From a virus: 64,000 bases of DNA. Where the stretch lies: positions 1 through 64,000 of IMG/VR virus record IMGVR_UViG_3300044716_001642. One strand, written 5' to 3'. The notes beneath the pieces were generated by a model. It had not been told where the DNA came from and ran no database searches. It saw only the letters and a program-made list of their open reading frames with translations. Below, one piece after another: positions 10,896 through 63,510 of this stretch; within the stretch, counting starts at the first letter, position 1, and every line of letters begins with the position of its first letter. Position numbers and translations under genes: made by a program.

Positions 10896-10956
10896 GTTAA
10901 GCCCCAGCGGTTTAGGGGCCCCTCCGGCCCGTAAGTGGTTGGTATTGAACATGTTA
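10896..10956 (+). repeat. palindromic intergenic element, copy 8 (shortened)
   Basis: About 61 nt; the first arm is shorter (GTTAAGCCCCAGCGGTTTA) but the GGGGCCCCTCCGGCCC core and second arm are kept. Confidence 0.8.
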
Positions 10957-11092
10957 TGCATGCGTATACATATACCCATAAGTGTATGCAGAACTATCCC
11001 CGCCCTCATTATTTGCATTATTTACGGCCACCTAGGCCGCTATTTGCCCAAATTTTTTTTCTTTTTTTTGAATTTTTATTTTGAAATTTTTA

Positions 11093-11121
11093 TTGACAAT
11101 GGTGTAAAAAGACACTATATT
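11093..11121 (+). promoter_or_regulatory. strong sigma70 promoter for the large RNA and tRNAs
   Basis: TTGACA 11093-11098, 17-bp spacer, TATATT 11116-11121, preceded by about 50 bases of T/A-rich sequence. A second match (TTGACA 11201, 16 bp, TAGATA 11223-11228) lies inside the transcript. Confidence 0.75.
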
Positions 11122-11127
11122 AGTTTT

Positions 11128-11731
11128 ATAAGGTAGTTGGTTCCCGATGATCCAATGGGACTGGGCTTACTCGGTCGAAAACAAAATCGGAAATTGATTT
11201 TTGACATTTTATTTTTGTTTGGTAGATAGAGTAGTAATACCTATCCCTGTGCAATCGAAAGAGGAGTGGTGCTTAATAAGGCGTTTCGTGTGCATTCGTA
11301 TGCATCGCAGCCGCTTGCCAAATAGATTTTTAGTAGACCCGCCATGCCTCTCACTTGCAATGAGTAGTTTCTAAAGTACACGGCAACTAAGTAAGTTGAT
11401 GCACACTTTGGCGGGTGTTCTTTTACCAAGCGCAGATGCTCGCAAAGCTCTACCGCGATGGGCGACAATGCAATGTTTCCGGAAACAACATTTAACCCAT
11501 AGGGAACTTCAGAAGAAGTCTTGGTAATAATTCTAAAACTGGAATGTTAGCTTAGAGGCAGCTATCATCTAAGGAGTGGGACTGGACGTGGAGAACTGGT
11601 AATTAGTATGGACACAATTCAAATAAGCCATACATCCTATTTATAGGTGCGGAGATGACCGTGAATTGCGTTTCACAGGACGAAGAAATTCGTAACCCCT
11701 TTGGCGTAAAAGCACACCAGTAAATTTTATA
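11128..11731 (+). ncRNA. large structured RNA of unknown class, with 23S L11-domain-like module
   Basis: About 600 bases without a usable reading frame lie between a near-consensus promoter and two tRNA genes. Hairpins visible in the sequence include an 8-bp stem ACCCGCCA/TGGCGGGT (11337-11344 with 11409-11416), GTGAA/TTCAC (11661-11665/11672-11676) and ACGAA-GAAA-TTCGT with a GNRA tetraloop (11680-11693). Positions 11545-11575 match E. coli 23S rRNA 1058-1088, the L11-binding GTPase-associated region, in 26 of 31 bases. Size and position next to phage tRNAs recall the GOLLD and ROOL RNAs, known large ornate phage RNAs, but I cannot confirm membership. Ends are inferred from the promoter and the first tRNA. 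Confidence 0.6.
11545..11575 (+). other. L11-binding-region-like RNA motif
   Basis: Contains TGTTAGCTTAGAGGCAGC and ATCATCTAAGGA. Compared with E. coli 23S 1058-1088, five bases differ, all transitions. Two of them, G1062 to A and C1076 to U, are partners and keep the helix-43 pair as A-U. The thiostrepton-site base A1067 is kept. Confidence 0.6.
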
Positions 11732-11817
11732 TGCGGGTTAGACTAGAGGTCAAAGTCAACGGGCTCATATCCCGTAGTCTAATATAGACACGTTTGGTTC
11801 AATTCCAACACCCGCAA
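11732..11817 (+). tRNA. class II tRNA with CAU anticodon
   Basis: Acceptor TGCGGGT/ACCCGCA, D-arm GAC...GTC with GG in the loop, anticodon arm ACGGG-CTCATAT-CCCGT (anticodon CAU), a long variable arm with perfect hairpin GTCTA-ATA-TAGAC, and a T-arm with TTCAATT and one bulged base. Long variable arms are normal for Leu, Ser and Tyr tRNAs, not for CAU tRNAs, so its charging identity is open. Confidence 0.75.
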
Positions 11818-11826
11818 ATTTTTTAA

Positions 11827-11899
11827 CGAATAGTGGCCTAATGGCTAAGGCACCCCGTTTGGGGCGGAGGGATTGGAAGTTCAAGTCTTCCCTATTCGA
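11827..11899 (+). tRNA. tRNA-Pro (UGG)
   Basis: Acceptor CGAATAG/CTATTCG, D-stem GCC/GGC, anticodon loop TTTGGGG (anticodon TGG with G37), T-arm GGAAG-TTCAAGT-CTTCC. One C-A mismatch in the anticodon stem. Confidence 0.85.
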
Positions 11900-11904
11900 T
11901 TGAC

Positions 11905-12426
11905 TTAAATCTTCTCCGTAATTTTATTCTTTATTATGGGTGCTATTTTAGTTTCAAATGCTTCATCCATAATCTGTTTTTGTTTTTTTCTACTGCTTAC
12001 TTCTGAGACATTTATAATAAAAAAAGAATAGTTCATATCACACAGCTCTCTAAATTTTATACTATCTTTAAGTTTTACATCCTCAAGCTTCTTCTCTCCG
12101 AATATTGGGAAATAGTGAACTGGTCCATTTACTTCTACCGCTAAAGATATTTCTGGTATGCAAATATCTATCTCAAGACCAGATTGTAAGGTTTTCCTAT
12201 CTGACTGAATGACATTCAAAGAGGGAAATACTTCTTTTATTTTTAAGAGAAGATAATCCTCTGGAAAGCTTATATTTCTTTTGCAACCTTTATTGATATG
12301 AAAATTTTTATTAAAATACCTCATACGGCAAGATTTGCTACAGAATCTTTGATTATGCTTTGCCTTGTTGTGCTTCCTATCTTTCAAGGGTTTAAATAAT
12401 ACATTACATTCTGGACAGTTTATCAT
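11905..12426 (-). CDS. zinc-finger PDDEXK homing endonuclease-like protein
   Basis: 173 residues. The N-terminus has a four-Cys zinc finger (CPEC...CSKSCRMRYF). The C-terminal part has GLEIDICIPEISLAVEVNGPVHY, the signature of the Vsr-like / EDxHD group of PDDEXK nucleases that includes phage homing enzymes such as I-Bth0305I. It lies on the opposite strand only five bases from tRNA-Pro, a typical landing place for such mobile endonuclease genes. AT-rich compared with its early-region neighbours, consistent with transfer. Confidence 0.7.
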   Translation of the reverse strand: MINCPECNVLFKPLKDRKHNKAKHNQRFCSKSCRMRYFNKNFHINKGCKRNISFPEDYLLLKIKEVFPSLNVIQSDRKTLQSGLEIDICIPEISLAVEVNGPVHYFPIFGEKKLEDVKLKDSIKFRELCDMNYSFFIINVSEVSSRKKQKQIMDEAFETKIAPIIKNKITEKI

Positions 12427-21398: not shown

Positions 21399-23516
21399 CT
21401 ACAACGCATCAATCATGTTGATATAATCTGTGAGCGCTTTCTTGTAAGTGTCTGGATTGTATTCGTCTGAAACTGGCAAGACGAGAGGATACTTTTTAAT
21501 GATCTCGTTTACAAGATTCGTAAACTCACTCATTTCCTTGTCGATAGATGCTTGAGCATCAGCAATGAATGACTTATTGGCAAGGCGAATGAGGCTAATA
21601 GTTTTACTATCCATGCACTTCGATTGATCTTGAATGATTGGCTTGATTGTAGCCATTGCTTTGCCAACAATATGATTGGCAGGGAGAAGCGTAACCAATG
21701 ACTTGAGAGTTTCTGGCAACCCGCGCATTTCCCAGTTTTTAGAAAAATCGCGGAACTTACTCTTGAAGTTGTCCCAAGAAATAGCATTGATTCCCTTGTT
21801 GATCTGGTCTTGAAATTTTTTGTCTTGAACAAGATTGCAGAACTTAACAACAGGCTTGCCGTCGAAAGTCGAATCATTGAACTTGTCATAATCGGCTTTT
21901 GGAAGGAACAAGGCGGCAGTCTTCTGCTTTGATTCGTCAGAGAGAATCGCAATGATCGGGTCAACATAATTTGCTTGAAGTTGATCGTAAACCTTATTCG
22001 ATACCGAGGGGAACAGGATGAACTTTTCTGTGTCCTTGTGCGAGGCGGCGTTGTAAAACTCAACGCAATCGTGAAACCCATAGTTGCGACCAGAGCGCAT
22101 ACGGAATGTGCCTTTGGCAGTTGCGCCAGTTGAAGTCGAGGTCTTACCCTTGCTTGGAACTTTAGGCAGGGAACTTGTCAACACGAACTCTCCCACCCAT
22201 CCAGTTTCTTGAATGAACTTGGCTTTTTCAGAATCCTTGAGGATGTAGAAAGCGTATGAGGCATAGCTATCATTCTTTTTCTTTTCGAGGATGACTTGCT
22301 TTGCGCGACCAACGCCGCCCACCTTCAAATCGTCCAAGAATAAAAATGCTTTTTTATTCGGCTCAACATTCTTCTCTCCCTCGCTAACATTGATTTTCTT
22401 GTTCCATGATGCCGTGGCATACAGATTAACCTTTGCATCCTTAACCTGCATTGCAGTTGCGGTCAAAGGCTTGCCGTTCCAGTTGAGCTTGAGCGTATCT
22501 GGTAGGAAGGTGAAAGATTCGCGGAGGCTTTTCAGCTTGAGCTTTGCTTCCCAAGTGTTGCCCTTGAAAGCGTCCATGTCGGCTTGCATTTTTGGCAGGA
22601 AGGAGTCAACGATCTGTTCCAGCTTGGTGAACATCCTTGTCATCGTGAGGTCATCCAGTTGGATTGCCTCGCGGGATGGAGTGATGCTGTATTCACCGAT
22701 TGGAACATGGATAACAAGATTGCATCGGAGAAGTCTATCGAACTTGGCGAACTTTTTATTCTCCAAGAGAGTTTGAACAGGTAGGCTGTAACCCACGCCT
22801 CCCATGACAATGACAGGAGAACCACTGCCCTCGTAGATTGCGAAGTTGCTTGTGCCGCCATCAAAGGTCATAGCTTGAGGCGTGAAGTTGATATTCTTGG
22901 CAATGCCATCACAGAAAACTCGCGGCTTGATTGAGAAGAATCGGTAAGCTCTTTCGACCTTCTCGTTGAATTGAGAAACATGACGATCAGGGCAAAGGAA
23001 CTTTACCTCAAAGCCATTGCGTTCAGTAGTTGCCTCGCTCTTAATCAGTCGAATGTCGGGAAGTCCATTTGATTGCAGGGAGATGAAGTATTGCGACTTT
23101 GTGCCATTGAATCGGGAGATTGCTTGGAAGTTATTCACAAGCGAGCAAAGCGACCACTTGCCAACGCCGAACCCGCCAATGAGGTCATTGTTGCCGCGCT
23201 TGCTGGATGCCCCAATGATTGAGTAAATGCGGATCATTTGATCGTGAGAGATACCCACGCCATTGTCAACGAAACGAACATTGCCGTCGAGTCGTGAGGG
23301 AAGATGCAATTCCCATCCGAGGTCTTGTGTCCCTGCCTCGATAGTAGCATCAACGCAATTTGCACCCACTTCACGAAGGACTGCCATCGTTGGGTCTTGA
23401 TAGAGATTGGCAATCATGCGGAAGAAGTGAGCGATGTTCTTCTCGTCGATACCTACGGAAATAGTCTCGAAGTTGCCGTTGAATTGAACTTTGTTGGTTT
23501 TGTCTGCGATAATCAT
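21399..23516 (-). CDS. rIIA: rIIA-like protein with GHKL ATPase fold
   Basis: 705 residues. The N-terminus has the GHKL/Hsp90-type ATP-binding motifs: REVGANCVDATIEAG (N-box), VRFVDNGVGIS (G1 box) and GGFGVGKWS (G2 box). The overall architecture and its partner rIIB identify a T4-type rIIA homologue. T4 rIIA is a membrane-associated protein needed in lambda lysogens and involved in lysis timing. The leader is 30 bases of ACCAACC-type sequence without a Shine-Dalgarno sequence. Confidence 0.85.
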   Translation of the reverse strand: MIIADKTNKVQFNGNFETISVGIDEKNIAHFFRMIANLYQDPTMAVLREVGANCVDATIEAGTQDLGWELHLPSRLDGNVRFVDNGVGISHDQMIRIYSIIGASSKRGNNDLIGGFGVGKWSLCSLVNNFQAISRFNGTKSQYFISLQSNGLPDIRLIKSEATTERNGFEVKFLCPDRHVSQFNEKVERAYRFFSIKPRVFCDGIAKNINFTPQAMTFDGGTSNFAIYEGSGSPVIVMGGVGYSLPVQTLLENKKFAKFDRLLRCNLVIHVPIGEYSITPSREAIQLDDLTMTRMFTKLEQIVDSFLPKMQADMDAFKGNTWEAKLKLKSLRESFTFLPDTLKLNWNGKPLTATAMQVKDAKVNLYATASWNKKINVSEGEKNVEPNKKAFLFLDDLKVGGVGRAKQVILEKKKNDSYASYAFYILKDSEKAKFIQETGWVGEFVLTSSLPKVPSKGKTSTSTGATAKGTFRMRSGRNYGFHDCVEFYNAASHKDTEKFILFPSVSNKVYDQLQANYVDPIIAILSDESKQKTAALFLPKADYDKFNDSTFDGKPVVKFCNLVQDKKFQDQINKGINAISWDNFKSKFRDFSKNWEMRGLPETLKSLVTLLPANHIVGKAMATIKPIIQDQSKCMDSKTISLIRLANKSFIADAQASIDKEMSEFTNLVNEIIKKYPLVLPVSDEYNPDTYKKALTDYINMIDAL

Positions 23517-62676: not shown

Positions 62677-63510
62677 TTAATGTTGTCCGCCTTCCCATGT
62701 GCTACCACACGGACCCCCGCTCTGATTAGCTTCAATCATGATATCTTCCCCTTCAGGAGTTATTAACGGAAGATAATGCTTGCTAATACGTTCTGTTGTT
62801 TTTGGAACATAATGGCAAATAAATGATCTGCGAAATCTGTCTTTGGATCGATTTGGTCCGGAGCCATGAATTGAAGAGCCATTAAAGAATAATGTATCTC
62901 CTGACTTCATAATACAGGGAACAGCTTTTTTTCCTTTTGGAGTTGGTACAAGATGCGTTGTAAATGACTCATTAGCATTAGCTTCTTTAGGACATATGAT
63001 CTCCTCTTCTGCTGTATCTGACACAAGGTACATTCCTCCGTTATCAGGATCAGCATCATCAATTGCTGTCCATGCTGCAACACACGTTTGCGGCTCAACT
63101 AAAAGATAGAAATTGTCTTGATGCATTGCTTGTCCCTTAGAACCAGGTGGTTTATAATAAAACATACTCTGTGCGGCAAGTACATCTTCTTGCATGAGGT
63201 CTTTCAAGCAAAAAAGAACACCCGAATGAACAAGATTCTTACGAGATACTGCGTTGAAACGGTGCGGTTGCATCACTCTTGGAAATTCTTTTAAAGGATC
63301 TCCGTTTGATTCTTCTTTGGACACAGGGTAAAAATAATCTTCAATAGTACCATTCTTTGCAATTTGATCAAAGGTATTTTTAATTTCCTCGACCTCCGCT
63401 TTGGAAAACAAGCCACGAGCAACAGCATATCCGTGTTGTTTAAATGATTCTCTCATTTCATCCAAATTAACAGATTCAGGAAGAATATAATTGTCGTTTG
63501 TTGTGCTCAT
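62677..63510 (-). CDS. phytanoyl-CoA dioxygenase-family protein
   Basis: 277 residues. HGYAVARGLFSKAEVEEIK, AMHQDNFYLLVEP (His-x-Asp), AWTAIDDADPDNGGMYLVSDT, FNGSSIHGSGPNRSKDRFRRSFICHYVP with distal His and Arg are the PhyH-family signature. It is a 2OG/Fe(II) oxygenase likely to act on small molecules or sugars. Composition is less AT-rich than its neighbours. Confidence 0.85.
   Translation of the reverse strand: MSTTNDNYILPESVNLDEMRESFKQHGYAVARGLFSKAEVEEIKNTFDQIAKNGTIEDYFYPVSKEESNGDPLKEFPRVMQPHRFNAVSRKNLVHSGVLFCLKDLMQEDVLAAQSMFYYKPPGSKGQAMHQDNFYLLVEPQTCVAAWTAIDDADPDNGGMYLVSDTAEEEIICPKEANANESFTTHLVPTPKGKKAVPCIMKSGDTLFFNGSSIHGSGPNRSKDRFRRSFICHYVPKTTERISKHYLPLITPEGEDIMIEANQSGGPCGSTWEGGQH

Follow-up and report, generated by a model that had tools for sequence, protein, structure and literature searches.

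RNA modules beside phage tRNA genes include a probable mimic of the 23S rRNA GTPase-associated centre

Introduction

Several RNAs of phages and bacteria invite comparison with the locus described here. GOLLD and ROOL are reported to lie often near tRNA islands (PMC12286853). In phage PhiTE, mimicry of the ToxI antitoxin provides a precedent for a phage RNA that stands in for an RNA antitoxin; there, the mimic is reported to be an antitoxin copy present in escape mutants (PMC3475682). The abiF RNA of C. difficile is an antitoxin that binds AbiF and acts both in cis and in trans (PMC12373285). Finally, the stable RNAs C and D of T4 are small stable RNAs in the tRNA cluster of that phage.

Here we describe a phage locus that shares some features with each of these. 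It is highly likely to be an array of separate RNA modules, not one RNA, and one of its modules is almost certainly a mimic of the GTPase-associated centre (GAC) of 23S rRNA. Unlike the PhiTE case, which concerns escape mutants, the arrays are those of wild-type phages and hold many modules, including the rRNA mimic. Phage decoy RNAs are known in kind, the PhiTE/ToxIN case being one of an antitoxin and not of rRNA (PMC3475682), whereas a copy of an rRNA centre and the arrays are new as far as we found. Our search, which covered Rfam 15 and open-access papers, returned no description of a trans-encoded viral copy of a ribosome functional centre, nor of cassette-like arrays of such RNAs.

Results

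The locus lies on the plus strand of positions 1 to 64,000 of IMG/VR virus record IMGVR_UViG_3300044716_001642, a 64,000-nt stretch to which we refer as the window. An earlier note, made from the sequence alone, had described a near-consensus promoter leading into about 600 gene-free bases and two tRNA genes, and these elements were confirmed. The promoter is sigma-70-like (TTGACA-17-TATATT, 11093–11121) with 11 of 12 consensus matches, and the conserved leader begins about 16 nt 3′ of it; four promoter-like sites were found as against 2.6 ± 1.9 in shuffled sequences, so that the site by itself is weak evidence. The longest ATG/GTG/TTG open reading frame inside 11130–11730 is 75 aa, and tRNA searches placed tRNA-Met (CAT) at 11732–11817 and tRNA-Pro (TGG) at 11827–11899. 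Directly past the tRNAs, on the opposite strand, is a 173-aa open reading frame with CxxC pairs (11905–12426) that matched no Pfam family. Elsewhere on the minus strand of the window are a PhyH-family dioxygenase (62677–63510) and an rIIA-like ATPase protein (21399–23516); the best named relatives of the latter are in Vibrio phages, with 28.8% identity, and the window may therefore derive from a distant T4-like phage.

The same note had described many hairpins. Folding energy gave no signal for the 601 nt from 11130 to 11730 (z-score 0.34; 13 of 20 shuffles folded at least as well), and the claim of structure must therefore rest on relatives. Such relatives were found, and comparison with them, through the covariation presented below, does support structured phage noncoding RNA adjoining tRNA genes; the suggestion of a new class is also supported. 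The proposed 8-bp long-range stem exists (ACCCGCCA/TGGCGGGT, 11337–11344 with 11409–11416) and belongs to an abiF-like RNA, whose stem it forms; for the proposed GNRA-capped stem, a GGAA that could cap a stem is present near 11185. An Rfam search of the region yielded nothing meaningful besides tRNA and a weak abiF match.

The size of the region, its phage origin and its tRNA neighbourhood had suggested one large ornate RNA of the GOLLD or ROOL type, and the structured character of the array, its place in phages and its position by tRNAs are indeed shared with these RNAs. However, Infernal searches with the Rfam models of GOLLD and ROOL found neither, at gathering level over the whole window or at E ≤ 10 over 10900–12000, and the array is modular. 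In place of a single 600-nt RNA we found at least five recombining modules, which in the window are arranged as leader A, B, C, D and E, followed by tRNA-Met and tRNA-Pro. Module A (11137–11212), the leader, runs from TTGGTTCCCGATGATCCAA to CAAAATCGGAAATTG, and its pattern, TTGGTTCCCGATGANCCAA, is present in 32 IMG/VR stretches. Our array map comprises 30 leader regions; it omits the window itself (L001) and a near copy of it (L004), a cut region (L208), and a leader match within an unrelated repetitive stretch (L232). Behind the common leader the module sets differ, for example A-K-C-D-E-F in L216, A-L-C-D-E-F in L218 and A-G-F in L209. A tRNA can stand inside the array (A-C-D-tRNAThr-F in L214; A-C-tRNAAla-D-F in L224), and in L005 a phosphoribosyltransferase gene (Pribosyltran) is located between modules G and C. 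Modules C, D, E and F occur in 18, 18, 15 and 21 of the 30 leader regions, respectively, some rows being incomplete or from nearly the same phage. The modules are thus shuffled among phages. Together with the presence of module E, without the leader and the other modules, in many phages, these arrangements argue against one large GOLLD- or ROOL-type RNA, which we regard as very improbable.

The folds predicted for modules B, D and F are plausible and show little covariation. Module B (11218–11324) is a predicted three-way-junction RNA closed by UUUGGU/GCCAAA, and two-sided changes were seen in three of its 28 predicted pairs, a weak result from five sequences. Module D (11423–11527) is predicted to be a branched RNA closed by UUACCAAG/CUUGGUAA, with two-sided changes in six of 34 predicted pairs among 10 sequences; for module F, the figure is two of 39. 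No Rfam family matched B, D or F in the five loci tried.

Module C (11337–11416) is a hairpin that resembles abiF RNA, its apical loop being enlarged by an insert of about 42 nt. It shares with abiF RNA (RF03085, the AbiF antitoxin) the stem and CCCGCCAUGCCUCU...GCACACUUUGGCGGGU, and differs from it in being a single copy, in the loop insert of the array phages, and in usually having no AbiF gene in the same record. The match of the window to RF03085 (29.8 bits, E 0.0047) is below the gathering threshold of 37, while the homologue in L003 exceeds that threshold with 49.6 bits. Of the 44 loci in which we examined the hairpin, 20 are unique and 27 are known only through its pattern. The Abi_2 family was found in two of 31 hairpin-bearing records and is absent from the record of the window; this absence is weak evidence because most abiF-bearing records are fragments. 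Module C stands an even chance of being a decoy for AbiF.

Module E (11538–11721), which the earlier note had missed, is the most telling part of the array and corresponds to helices 42–44 of the GAC, the L11 site. The likeness is seen at 11540–11575. In a blastn search of E. coli genomes, 23S rRNA was matched in two of 5426 genomes (32 nt, 87.5%, E 1); against E. coli and Paenibacillus rRNA the module scored 41.9 bits, more than any of 100 shuffles. None of the 13 other modules tried, the leader included, was clearly above chance in blastn against rRNA. A proposed imitation of the 16S 3′ region by module F, or of further parts of rRNA by the remaining modules, fared no better than shuffles; for module M, three of 100 shuffles reached the score. 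The helix 43 part (11544–11568), which we take to be E. coli positions 1057–1081, forms a hairpin with a UUAGAAGCAG-type loop (consensus GUUGGCUUAGAAGCAGCC), and 99.2% of the cells in helix 2 of the alignment are standard pairs. It is followed by an insert that is itself based on a helix and is absent from rRNA (11578–11699, 122 nt), and then by the helix 44 hairpin, GGCGUAAAAGC, with the 3′ strand of the closing stem (11700–11721). In the window 18 pairs were checked, and every one is standard. With the 23S GAC, module E shares the helix 43 sequence and pairs, the helix 44 hairpin, the closing stem and the 1082–1086 pair. Unlike the 23S GAC, it is free-standing with no other rRNA seen beside it, it carries the insert in helix 44, U1101 is replaced by A, and 20 of 89 cores do not keep A1067.

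The same architecture recurs in other loci. The piece found 3′ of helix 43 is the helix 44 hairpin, TTTGGCGTANNAGCACACC or a sequence near it. When true 23S is set aside, 25 of the loci identified through helix 43 alone extend at least 595 nt downstream. In all 25, helix 43 is followed by the helix 44 hairpin GCGUANNAGC, as against 119 of 5800 stretches of 500 nt drawn at random from these loci. The ends of the insert between the two halves pair with each other, and its length in other loci ranges from about 50 to 440 nt. The sequence of the closing stem varies from phage to phage and pairing is kept, as in TTGCAAGG...CCTTGCAA (L011), TTTGAAGG...CCTTCAAA (L018) and TTATTATGG...CCATAATAA (L006). 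Inserts fall into recurrent classes (L007, L059, L060, L062, L117, L158 and others), one of which has GGTAAGGCTGAA at its end, directly ahead of the basal helix; other classes end in CCTTAGAG, GTGGA or AATATGA, which are possibly shared internal-loop motifs.

The helix 43 pattern alone was present in 29 IMG/VR stretches, one of which (L027) is a true 23S gene while the remainder are not; L064 and L070 are the other true 23S sequences among the loci examined. Scanning IMG/VR for the helix 44 piece added to the survey at least 120 stretches, and scanning bacterial genome contigs yielded 27 more, both halves being present in 13 of these. An instance was required to have T1083 A1084 A1085, G1087 A1088, GGCGT and AGC, with at most 11/5 substitutions. 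By this filter, both halves of module E occur in at least 128 instances in phages, plasmids and bacterial contigs: at least 104 from IMG/VR, 13 genome contigs, seven named phages, three plasmids and the window. The named carriers, seven of the eight named phage regions fetched, are Pseudomonas phages pf16, UNO-G1W1 and Astolliot, Aeromonas phage 4_4572, Serratia phage BF, Xanthomonas phage XacN1 and Cronobacter phage GAP32, and none of the named phage regions has an annotated RNA at the site; the eighth, Paenibacillus phage Pd_22F, holds a true 23S piece instead. All three plasmid regions fetched carry the module. No Rfam 15 family for it was found in the window or in 18 other loci tested. Filtering the 109 unique cores among the matches listed to <85% identity left a non-redundant set of 89.

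To evaluate conservation of the fold, we aligned 61 gapless cores of 83 columns, 60 diverse members of the 89 and the window. Seventeen of 21 pairs change on both sides. The covariation score was 0.624, compared with 0.137 for shuffled alignments (0 of 500 reached it) and at most 0.173 with partners slid, and 93.4% of the cells pair, compared with 67.7% after shuffling. Positions that change freely and yet stay paired include the closing stem, 1057–1081, 1058–1080 and the basal helix of the insert, in which all four pairs show two-sided changes; the freely varying columns were left unfixed by the searches, save for the loose substitution limit. The 1082–1086 pair, which we take to be a tertiary pair of the rRNA fold, is CG in 38, UA in 34 and AU in 9 cores, 81 of 89 altogether; its columns, too, were left unfixed by the searches apart from that limit. 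These data show conservation of module E at the RNA level, with the secondary structure of the GAC and a tertiary pair of the GAC type. The junction and core positions that are kept among the 89 cores are 1059–1060, 1072, 1079, 1083–1085, 1087–1088, 1091–1092 and 1098–1100; the searches fixed much of helix 44 and the filter fixed TAA (1083–1085), GA (1087–1088), GGCGT and AGC, so the invariance of helix 44 and the junction arises partly by construction. Only 69 of the 89 cores keep the A of A1067, where factors and thiopeptides presumably make contact; it is therefore unlikely that the factor site is copied in fully functional form.

The clear similarity to 23S rRNA raises the question of whether module E might be a decayed captured piece of 23S or a target-site copy left by a mobile element. 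The strong two-sided covariation contradicts this, as do the derived marks shared among helix-43-only loci (UUUGG before helix 44; AGCACAC for AGCUCAC). No rRNA family matched in the window and no further rRNA was seen beside the module in the flanks examined. We consider such an origin extremely improbable.

In the reciprocal direction, we built a covariance model, R1, from the 61 mimic cores with no rRNA row. R1 found the GAC of true 23S, giving 56.3 bits (E 7e-13) on the Paenibacillus phage record L064 and 48.7 bits (E 9e-11) on each of Salmonella 23S and L027, and its alignment to 23S shows a deletion exactly where the mimics carry the insert. The window itself gave two partial matches, 37.2 bits (E 1e-7) and 16.9 bits, a split that is due to the long insert. 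R1 also recovered, among the matches listed, 15 (E ≤ 0.01) of 24 IMG/VR loci submitted out of 28 that had failed the descriptor, and four of 13 submitted out of the 14 genome contigs without both halves (one with 32.4 bits, three with 21–23 bits). T4 RNAs C and D resemble module E as small stable RNAs of a phage tRNA cluster; unlike it, they are not recognized by R1, which had no match in the T4 tRNA region that holds them. The descriptor matched neither half inside the two RNAs, and they were rejected as members; a lone match with 8 substitutions in the T4 stretch falls outside them. Leptolyngbya phage Lbo-JY46, the best phage match, is alike in tRNA-Met only and had no R1 match in the stretch examined.

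Among the 89 non-redundant loci, 58 have a tRNA, which lies within 500 nt in 46 (31.4 are expected from random placement), and 31 have no tRNA in the stretches examined. In all 46 the nearby tRNA and module E are on the same strand, a rule that partly reflects operon-like gene order, and the distance is within 39 nt in 35. In its placement, module E is like a further member of phage tRNA operons. Other neighbours were recorded. In L199 (2522–4714) and L201 (2070–3593) they include a kinase–phosphatase–RNA ligase fusion (phrog_8238) and a DUF2828 protein (phrog_850), the latter listed as RNA-binding; in XacN1 the gene before module E encodes a 2′-5′ RNA ligase. tmRNA genes occur in the mimic or array loci L011, L090, L098 and L218. 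CTA-anticodon tRNAs, of the amber suppressor type and called Pyl by ARAGORN, are present in mimic loci L008, L011, L014, L077, L090 and L110; weakened RF1 termination without L11 would fit their presence, but many loci lack such tRNAs.

Cellular ribosomal-protein leaders often imitate rRNA sites, and module E could in principle be the cis-regulatory leader of a phage ribosomal-protein gene. We rejected this idea since none of 40 mimic-bearing records has an L11 family gene, whereas 14 of 14 control genomes were positive, and since the close neighbours are often tRNAs and not ribosomal-protein genes; its probability is close to nil. A second alternative is that module E is an RNP scaffold, on which bound uL11 and the stalk recruit translational GTPases or tether the variable insert to ribosomes. 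Such a function would account for a GAC junction that is invariant or nearly so while inserts of about 50–440 nt vary, and the L12 family was above the cut-off in two of the 40 mimic-bearing records (domain matches are at 96300–96383 in W03, which is UNO-G1W1, and at 131047–131247 in G035). However, the incomplete retention of A1067 and the lack of the L11 family in all 40 records speak against a scaffold, which we think quite improbable.

Discussion

The RNAs of the array are most likely decoys. By sequence comparison, two of the modules imitate protein-bound RNAs, and sequestration is the simplest explanation. Taken as a whole, an RNA-module array with decoys is, on balance, the probable explanation of the locus. 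From these comparisons we infer transcription, processing, L11 binding and an anti-defence purpose in the following way. One promoter would drive the leader and then a series of separate, stem-closed RNA domains and tRNAs, and the transcript would presumably be cut apart as tRNA transcripts are. Module E would fold as the 23S GAC and very probably present the same protein-binding surface, with which it could capture uL11, or the stalk and factor machinery that reads the GAC. The roles of the kept GAC positions and of A1067 in uL11 and factor binding are as we take them to be; on that assumption, the kept core and the loss of the factor-facing A1067 in some cores make it likelier that the module is bound by the RNA-binding domain of uL11 than that it imitates the factor site. 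That module E works by binding uL11 is a proposition we hold to be evenly balanced.

Capture by module E might blunt L11-dependent functions such as the activation of RelA, or it might draw off a host effector that is directed against ribosomes. With less free or ribosomal uL11, stringent signalling through RelA should be weaker and the use of release factors should shift, and either could be useful to a phage. Module C, for its part, may stand in as an RNA antitoxin that neutralizes AbiF-type toxins. An anti-defence or anti-stringent purpose for the array would be consistent with these activities, and we put it forward as a possibility about which we are rather doubtful.

Alternatively, module E might be bait for a defence enzyme of the host, an RNase or a modifying toxin, that attacks the GAC or docks there, with any binding of uL11 being incidental. 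The company of tRNAs and of an abiF-like antitoxin hairpin fits such a role, and some neighbours are concerned with RNA repair (the RNA ligase/kinase of L199 and the 2′-5′ RNA ligase of XacN1); these are uncontrolled observations in few loci, however. To our knowledge, no defence toxin has the GAC as its target, which also counts against bait of this kind, and we view it as unlikely.

Returning to the array of decoys that capture uL11 or the readers of the GAC, we tentatively propose, with somewhat less than even confidence, that phages carry interchangeable RNA-decoy arrays, an RNA counterpart of anti-defence islands. Each module would imitate a cellular RNA that is read by a host protein, and the most widespread would be a free-standing copy of the GAC that hijacks uL11 or its readers. 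The findings suggest that large phages handle translation through imitation of rRNA, besides carrying tRNAs. They name uL11 as a directly testable binding partner, and they make the arrays a way to find host RNA-binding defence proteins, each module being a bait for its target.
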